A stretch of DNA of 64,000 nucleotides from Paenibacillus sp. JDR-2. GTDB taxonomy: Bacteria; Bacillota; Bacilli; Paenibacillales; Paenibacillaceae. A program made the position numbers and the translations under genes. The notes under the pieces were generated by a model. It was not told where the DNA came from and searched no databases. It saw nothing but the letters and a program-made list of their open reading frames with translations. Positions 1,405 through 3,952 of this stretch are shown here, piece after piece (the first letter of the stretch is position 1; every line of letters begins with the position of its first letter). The stretch is from positions 4,246,001-4,310,000 of the forward strand of contig NC_012914.1 in assembly GCF_000023585.1 (NCBI RefSeq), in the 5' to 3' direction.

Positions 1405-2065
1405 TTATCGATTTGGGGGATTTCCGAAATTGGCATTAGGCACAACCGTATAGCGGTCTAGGTATTTAATTGAGTTCGGGTCAATGACAACGGATTGAAT
1501 CCGGCTGTTATATATAATGAAATCCCAATTTTCTACTTTAAACCGTATAATCCTCATCAGTAGGCCGTTTTACGATTTGCACAGTGAACTTTAACTGTTT
1601 CTTGTCAGTTAGTTCTTGATAACCGATGAGCTTATAATCTATGATGCTGGTCATATCCGTGTACCCGCCAGTTGGGAATTCTAAAAATACGTTTGTCGTA
1701 AAGTCACTGCCAATTAATTCTTGGTATGCCTTACTGTCCCTTTCATCATAGGCCATAATAAATTTAAAGACCATATTGCGATAGGGTACCCACCATGTCC
1801 GATCCGTCTCTTTATCATACGACGGGACAGAATTCACGTAGACAGATTTGCTTTTGTTATCCCAGGCGATTGCTGCTCCTAACCCTTCCGAGATTGCCCG
1901 AATAGGAACGTATACGCTGCCGTTTATCAATTTGGGCTCGGCTGTAGTCTTAACTTCGTTGCCGTTAATAAAGATTTTGGGTACGACAGTAGCTGCATAA
2001 ACTCCAGAACTAAATAATGCAATGCAAGCAACTCCTAATAATCCTACTTTTGTATATTGTCTCAC
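1405..2065 (-). pseudogene. Frameshifted copper amine oxidase N-domain-like secreted protein
   Basis: The protein begins with a signal peptide and then has the ~50-residue stalk domain known as the copper amine oxidase N-terminal-like domain (FINGNEV...YVPIRAISEGLGA...W). This domain is common in surface proteins of Paenibacillus and Bacillus and is not itself an oxidase. The best start is GTG at 2065, because a perfect AGGAGGGG lies just upstream of it; the in-frame ATG at 2083 lies upstream of that site. The reading frame stops at 1538 (TAA). In the +1 frame clear protein-like sequence continues for about 42 codons (KVENWDFIIYNSRIQ...) to TAA at 1405. The junction is GTT TAA A. A 1-2 base indel, either a mutation or a sequencing error, explains this best. 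A programmed +1 shift at GTT-TAA is possible but unsupported. Confidence 0.6.
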
Positions 2066-2192
2066 TCTACCCCTCCTAGTCATTTTGTTGTGTATAGACG
2101 CAAATGAAATACATTATGTTTCCAAAAATGTTGAAAAATATACGTTATACAATTGCTGCTATAGCCAAAGAAATGCGATAAGCTCTCTAATA

Positions 2193-2587: not shown

Positions 2588-2983
2588 TTAACTATTCTGA
2601 TCTGGCCATGAATCCCCTTCTCTTCGGCATACCCAATCATAATGCATACCGGAATCAAATGGTTCGGTGGCCAATTTAACGCCATTCTTAACCATTTCGA
2701 GACCTTCTAGATTGATCTGATCCGTGAGATAGACAAGTACATCATGTATACCACCGTCTCGCGCCGATTGGGCGATCATTGCAATTACTTCTTTTTGTTC
2801 TGTCGTCAACCCACTCAAGACTCTGTTGATCCGTTCATTCTCTACCTTAACCGGCCAGCCGTTTTCCATAATCCAACGAGGATATACGCTTGGGCGAAGC
2901 TCAACCAAATCATCAATGAATTCCTTATATCGTTCTATAGCTTGCTTTTCCATCTGTGCGCCCCATTTCATTTCACTATTCAA
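2588..2983 (-). CDS. Hypothetical protein (DUF6547-like?)
   Basis: This is a soluble 131-residue protein, acidic and helix-rich (EKQAIERYKEFIDDLVE...), ending in a Trp-rich segment (HYDWVCRREGDSW). It starts at TTG with AGAGGAA six bases upstream and lies only 13 bp after the Prp-like gene 2997-3461, so the two are probably co-transcribed. The sequence reminds me of the DUF6547 family, which I cannot confirm. Small soluble proteins with this conserved helical-plus-WD style often turn up as immunity proteins of contact toxins, but no toxin gene is in sight. Function unknown. Confidence 0.5.
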   Translation of the reverse strand: MNSEMKWGAQMEKQAIERYKEFIDDLVELRPSVYPRWIMENGWPVKVENERINRVLSGLTTEQKEVIAMIAQSARDGGIHDVLVYLTDQINLEGLEMVKNGVKLATEPFDSGMHYDWVCRREGDSWPDQNS

Positions 2984-2996
2984 CTATCGTTCCTCT

Positions 2997-3461
2997 CTAA
3001 CCCAGCCAACCAAAGATTTTCTTACTTTTCCCTAACTTAACCTCTTCAATTGTAATGAATTTCTCACCATATGTACTTTGAATGGCATACATACCTAGCC
3101 TGAGTGATTTAAATAATATAATGGCTTCTTTACTAACTCGGCCCTTAATTATGCATTTAGCAAAATTCTTTTTTGTTTCAATTTCCGCAGCATCCTCAGT
3201 AAATTGCTTTATGGAATTAATGGTATTAATGGATAAAGAAGATACGCCGGCTGCAATAATATCATAACCGTATTGAGTAAAACCAGTAGTCCCCTTGGCT
3301 ATAAAACCATAAATACTGTCATGATCTTGTGCATTAAAATAAAATGTAATAATGAAGGGATCGCGAACTTCTTCATCTAGAATAGCTCTTTGCCTTTCAA
3401 TATCTTTCTGCTGATCATAATCTTGAAAAAATGGATCAGTAATATTAATTCGATTATCCAT
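2997..3461 (-). CDS. Prp-like protein lacking the protease catalytic residues
   Basis: Residues 50-150 align with the Prp/YsxB family, the cysteine protease that trims the N-terminus of ribosomal protein L27. The family core GHA-x5-G-x-DIVCAGxS appears here as GTTGFTQYGYDIIAAGVS, and the C-terminal helix pattern (L..L..G...I...Y.....I) is also kept. The catalytic His is replaced by Thr58 and the catalytic Cys by Ala70, so proteolysis by the known mechanism is not expected. A ~45-residue acidic N-terminal extension is not typical of Prp. True prp normally sits between rplU and rpmA; this copy sits among unknown small genes. It may bind a partner without cutting it, which is inference. AAGGAG lies at a good distance from the ATG. 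Confidence 0.65.
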   Translation of the reverse strand: MDNRINITDPFFQDYDQQKDIERQRAILDEEVRDPFIITFYFNAQDHDSIYGFIAKGTTGFTQYGYDIIAAGVSSLSINTINSIKQFTEDAAEIETKKNFAKCIIKGRVSKEAIILFKSLRLGMYAIQSTYGEKFITIEEVKLGKSKKIFGWLG

Positions 3462-3523
3462 AATATTTTTACTCCTTATGAGAGCGTAAATTCAATTATA
3501 TGCTTGACCTATTCATCGGTAGC

Positions 3524-3952
3524 TTAATCAATAGTTGCTTTTGCGTTTATTGCAATACGCTTTAGATGATTTAATAGCCGATCACTATAAGAGTAGAGTA
3601 TTATATTTTCATTTCCTTTATATACATAGATAGTTGTTCGGTCCCATCGTTTAGTACTTGTAATTAGAGATATCTCTTCAATTCTCCATCTTTTAATCCT
3701 TTTAAAATAGGTATGATACATCAAGTAATCATTAGTTAACTCTACATATGATAATTTACCTAACCCAAATAGTATAAATGCCATGCCACCGATGATTGAT
3801 GAAATGCCGGCTATGACCCCAATGATTGTATGCTCGGCTATAGGTAATATGGCTAAGCAAATGAATAGAAATCCCAAAAGGATAAATTTTTTACTTGGAG
3901 TATAAATTTCCACAGCCTTCTCCTTATCTCTTTGTCGGATTAATTTTTTCAT
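3524..3952 (-). CDS. Hypothetical two-TM protein with PH-like C-terminal part
   Basis: The 142-residue protein has a charged N-terminus, two adjacent membrane segments (about residues 27-44 and 47-67) and a cytosolic C-terminal ~75 residues with alternating strands (LSYVELTNDYLMYHTYFKRIKRW). This layout, a TM hairpin followed by a small bacterial PH-like fold, is seen in YcxB-type proteins. Its ATG overlaps the stop of the upstream gene (ATGA), so translation is probably coupled. Base composition is AT-rich compared with the sugar transporter genes nearby. Function unknown. Confidence 0.5.
   Translation of the reverse strand: MKKLIRQRDKEKAVEIYTPSKKFILLGFLFICLAILPIAEHTIIGVIAGISSIIGGMAFILFGLGKLSYVELTNDYLMYHTYFKRIKRWRIEEISLITSTKRWDRTTIYVYKGNENIILYSYSDRLLNHLKRIAINAKATID

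Follow-up and report, generated by a model that had tools for sequence, protein, structure and literature searches.

Prp (YsxB) is a ribosomal-processing cysteine protease (PF04327; S. aureus structures 4PEO and 7KLD), and its active form requires both a catalytic histidine, His22, and a catalytic cysteine, Cys34. In the S. aureus enzyme Gly29, Asp31 and Ser38 contact the substrate or order the loop, Gly21 and Gly29 are hinges, and the mutants G21A, D31A and S38A are inactive (PMC9405229). The protein is a dimer, and the substrate is bound partly at the dimer interface (PMC9405229). Prp is an antibiotic target, and a review treats it only as an active protease.

We analysed a window of 64,000 nucleotides from the genome of the soil bacterium Paenibacillus sp. 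JDR-2 (7.18 Mb, one contig), which contains a gene for a catalytically dead relative of Prp, here named pseudo-Prp. It shares with Prp the fold, the glycine hinges, Asp31, Ser38 and the order of helices and strands. However, it has no catalytic histidine or cysteine, carries an extra N-terminal helix, lies outside the rplU-prp-rpmA operon, and has a patchy, accessory distribution. Pseudoproteases such as iRhoms also have a protease fold, have lost the catalytic residues and are kept by selection; the likeness is by concept only, and the fold of iRhoms is unrelated. No description of dead Prps was found in a literature search that had most subscription papers outside its coverage. Within the literature searched, pseudo-Prp is an undescribed pseudoenzyme branch of the known Prp family.

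The window protein and its predicted fold

The gene has the following features, all on the minus strand.

2997..3461, minus strand: pseudo-Prp gene, encoding a catalytically dead Prp paralog of 154 aa (ORF, Pfam, alignment, predicted structure)
3472..3478, minus strand: ribosome-binding site TAAGGAG, 10 nt 5' of the ATG (sequence)
3357..3461, minus strand: N-terminal extension, residues 1-35, with a predicted helix at 10-28
3228..3293, minus strand: former active-site region, residues 57-78 (Gly21-Phe42 of S. aureus Prp), with Gly57, Gly65, Asp67 and Ser74 retained
3288..3290, minus strand: Thr58 codon, at the place of catalytic His22 in S. aureus numbering (alignment)
3252..3254, minus strand: Ala70 codon, at the place of catalytic Cys34 (alignment)

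The start codon is ATG. The Pfam model Peptidase_Prp (PF04327) matches residues 38-134 with 60.1 bits (E 2.5e-16) at a curated cut-off of 27 bits, in agreement with the family membership proposed in the first-pass annotation. The NCBIfam Prp equivalog models also match the protein, though weakly and with scores far under their cut-offs (best score 40.5 bits vs 135). In the alignment with S. aureus Prp, His22 corresponds to Thr58 and Cys34 to Ala70, exactly the replacements named in that annotation, and Gly21, Gly29, Asp31 and Ser38 correspond to Gly57, Gly65, Asp67 and Ser74. Thus the window protein lacks both residues required of active Prp and has all four of its substrate-loop residues.

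An AlphaFold2 model was built from the alignment of the clade described below. Its core is confident, with block means mostly 85-97 across residues 41-140. The block mean is 67 at residues 61-70, which form a flexible loop, and both ends are disordered. The added N-terminal helix, residues 10-28, is modelled at modest confidence. The extension itself, also claimed at first pass, is real: its residues 20-36 are conserved among most relatives and are largely helical by prediction. All 12 PDB matches of the model found by Foldseek at E<=0.001 are Prp structures (4PEO, 7JVS, 7KLD, 2G0I, 2G0J, 2IDL), with TM by target of 0.71-0.81 and E of 2.9e-8 to 9.2e-7. Since there is no other fold among these matches, the predicted fold is that of Prp; structure prediction against this fold had been set as a test at first pass.

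The dead clade and its maintenance

The clade comprises 18 sequences. None of the 18 has the catalytic histidine or cysteine, and 71 of 71 readable canonical Prps have both. The position of Cys34 is occupied by alanine in 17 members and by serine in one, and that of His22 by Glu, Ser, Thr or Ile. Because both residues are lost in every member, this is no chance match. On the other hand, Gly21, Gly29 and Ser38 are retained in all 18 sequences and Asp31 in 16. The stretch that corresponds to Gly21-Phe42 has a mean entropy of 0.89 bits, and the remainder of the domain 1.37 bits (one-sided Mann-Whitney p 0.008); for the loop alone the difference from the rest of the domain is not significant (p 0.15).

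A maximum-likelihood tree unites the dead sequences in a single group (support 100/98, 100% of bootstraps), and a broken remnant, mislabelled canonical on account of its low score, falls inside this group in an earlier tree that included it. The dead Prps are thus a discrete clade of single origin. Its deeper placement in the tree, which is based on 122 columns without a fixed root, is uncertain. The clade lies outside the group of canonical Prps of Paenibacillaceae, and therefore recent duplication of the host prp was ruled out as the source of the window gene. Profile scores also separate the two kinds, with canonical Prps below 90 bits and clade members with a largely intact domain at about 125 bits or more.

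Members were found in 13 of 297 genomes of the same family, including two remnants (G200, G245) and a copy whose 5' end is disrupted (G172). Among named relatives, the nearest is that of Paenibacillus glycanilyticus (67%). A second, sister family of the order Paenibacillales has five more members, one of them frameshifted (G753). To judge from these genomes, the distribution in Paenibacillales is sporadic. The deepest member (G604) belongs to another class, with kinship to the window genome at the phylum level only, and its genome is the sole carrier among 10 of its order. In 399 genomes drawn from the class (other Bacilli), no member was found at E<=1e-23 apart from the window genome. The search of viral contigs and plasmids returned no relatives, and a phage or plasmid origin was rejected; the only phage matches were two weak, unannotated records at 34-36% identity.

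The dN/dS ratios between related intact members are 0.06-0.18, and therefore purifying selection acts on and maintains the dead protein. The ratio for the window gene and that of P. glycanilyticus is about 0.12, a value that rests on near-saturated dS. Truncated or frameshifted copies do occur in four hosts, G200 (locus L044), G245 (L045), G172 (L042) and G753 (L134), and hence the gene is dispensable. These copies could suggest that the window gene, too, is a decaying pseudogene. However, it has an intact frame and a ribosome-binding site, and, given the low dN/dS, such decay is scarcely credible. It is also very improbable that pseudo-Prp is still an enzyme whose catalytic residues have migrated. 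Indeed, Cys103 was invariant in the first alignment of 12 sequences, but it is replaced by Phe or Val in other members, and no histidine is conserved in the clade, which ruled out this candidate. Homologs carrying the catalytic pair elsewhere, a case raised at first pass, were sought and none was found. We conclude that the window protein is very likely a dead Prp kept by selection.

Gene neighbourhood and candidate targets

Pseudo-Prp is surrounded by small genes on the minus strand.

2588-2983, minus strand: DUF6547 gene, downstream of pseudo-Prp
3524-3952, minus strand: membrane protein gene, upstream of pseudo-Prp
1538-2083, minus strand: gene of a secreted Cu_amine_oxidN1 protein

The first-pass annotation had looked to a conserved neighbourhood as a sign of dedicated function. 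No conserved operon partner was found across the loci of the relatives, where the neighbours differ, and an isochorismatase-like gene is common only to close relatives within one genus. The 116 neighbour proteins include 11 GNAT acetyltransferases, five Cu_amine_oxidN1 proteins, three SUKH proteins and three proteins with RCC1 repeats. These recurring neighbours are accessory genes, and their associations are post hoc and partly come from shared ancestry.

The suggested role in immunity was not supported: no toxin family was recognised adjoining pseudo-Prp in the window or among the relatives' neighbours within the 25 commonest families listed. Some neighbours have no family, and a toxin could have been overlooked. 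A defence role was not supported either. The 25 families listed by PADLOC for the neighbours are all DNA methyltransferases, with only two neighbour proteins each. No phage link was found, and a promoter scan did not exceed shuffled sequence in its number of matches.

Genes with RCC1 repeats were observed within about 4 kb of pseudo-Prp at L033:4300-5157, L040:11986-12888, L043:10364-11854 and L134:4771-6309, fused with SUKH-1 in L043 and with Cu_amine_oxidN1 in L134. Such genes are rare in some carrier genomes, and some of these loci are of one genus and thus not independent. Secreted Cu_amine_oxidN1 genes lie near pseudo-Prp in the window (1538-2083) and at L033:3191-4168, L133:5389-6099 and L137:5358-6221; this co-occurrence is possibly above background, though post hoc.

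The canonical prp of the host (L001) is situated between rplU and rpmA, away from pseudo-Prp, and has intact GHAKYADRGKDIICAGVS. Given this gene, the essential Prp function is presumably supplied by the normal host protein, to which the dead clade is only about 29% identical. The host L27 starts with MLKLDLQLFASKKG, a cleavable N-terminus. This start of rpmA is the only Prp-type N-terminus judged convincing among 49 motif sites in the host genome, and the idea of a second L27-like target was not borne out; several further short frames that carry it close to a possible start seem to be spurious. The DNA pattern encoding LQLFA occurs with identical sites and context at G000:C1:4032997, 4244783 and 4655766, with one site lying immediately to the left of the window. 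These are probably copies of one mobile element.

The deepest member (G604, L138:6430-6864) starts with MKNKKVIKLLGALFLILVIISAQTMIFAQS, preceded by AAAAGGAG; a strong ribosome-binding site lies before this start. Its N-terminus, judged by eye, resembles a typical signal peptide, and the protein is apparently an exported one with the Prp fold. Most members have no signal peptide.

Possible roles of pseudo-Prp

Retention under selection in scattered relatives probably reflects a non-cutting job such as protein binding. The loss of catalysis, the kept loop scaffold and selection together argue for a binding role without cleavage. The peptide-binding loop of Prp would be preserved, with Gly21 and Gly29 as hinges, Asp31 as an anchor and Ser38 forming hydrogen bonds with the substrate backbone. 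This loop and the N-terminal helix may clasp a partner protein or a peptide in extended form without cutting it, making pseudo-Prp a candidate factor for binding or shielding, with a role that is accessory and dispensable. Binding of a peptide or partner is plausible, and we hold it tentatively. Two members without Asp31 speak against peptide binding, and neither a conserved neighbour nor a further protein of the genome with an L27-like motif offers a partner.

The retained loop residues could instead be structural, and one possibility is co-option of the Prp fold for an accessory role of an unrelated kind, perhaps at the cell envelope. The scattered loci among acetyltransferase, secreted Cu_amine_oxidN1, SUKH and RCC1-repeat genes, together with the signal-peptide-like start in G604, are consistent with this. 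However, most members have no such start, and the associations with neighbours are weakened by their post hoc nature and shared ancestry; such recruitment is rather unlikely. Regulation of the host Prp through mixed dimers or competition for pre-L27, a dominant-negative effect that would slow ribosome maturation, is unlikely as well. The dimeric state of Prp with the substrate partly at the interface (PMC9405229), the cleavable L27 of the host and the presence of canonical prp in 19 of 19 hosts examined agree with it. However, almost every one of these genomes has canonical prp, and its coexistence with pseudo-Prp says little. A retained dimer interface would also be unexpected in a clade that is no offshoot of the Paenibacillaceae prp and has such low identity to the host protein. 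If the signal peptide of the G604 member is right, that protein could not act on cytosolic L27, and its export would mean that the members may lack one common target. It is doubtful that the branch as a whole is an ancient pseudoprotease whose ligands are not L27 but peptides from surface or exported proteins, with one or more members at work outside the cytosol.

As to the family, not every match to PF04327 can be annotated as a protease. A selected non-cutting branch, if true, would offer a natural peptide-binding version of Prp with which to study how substrates are recognised; it might also have a regulatory part in ribosome maturation.
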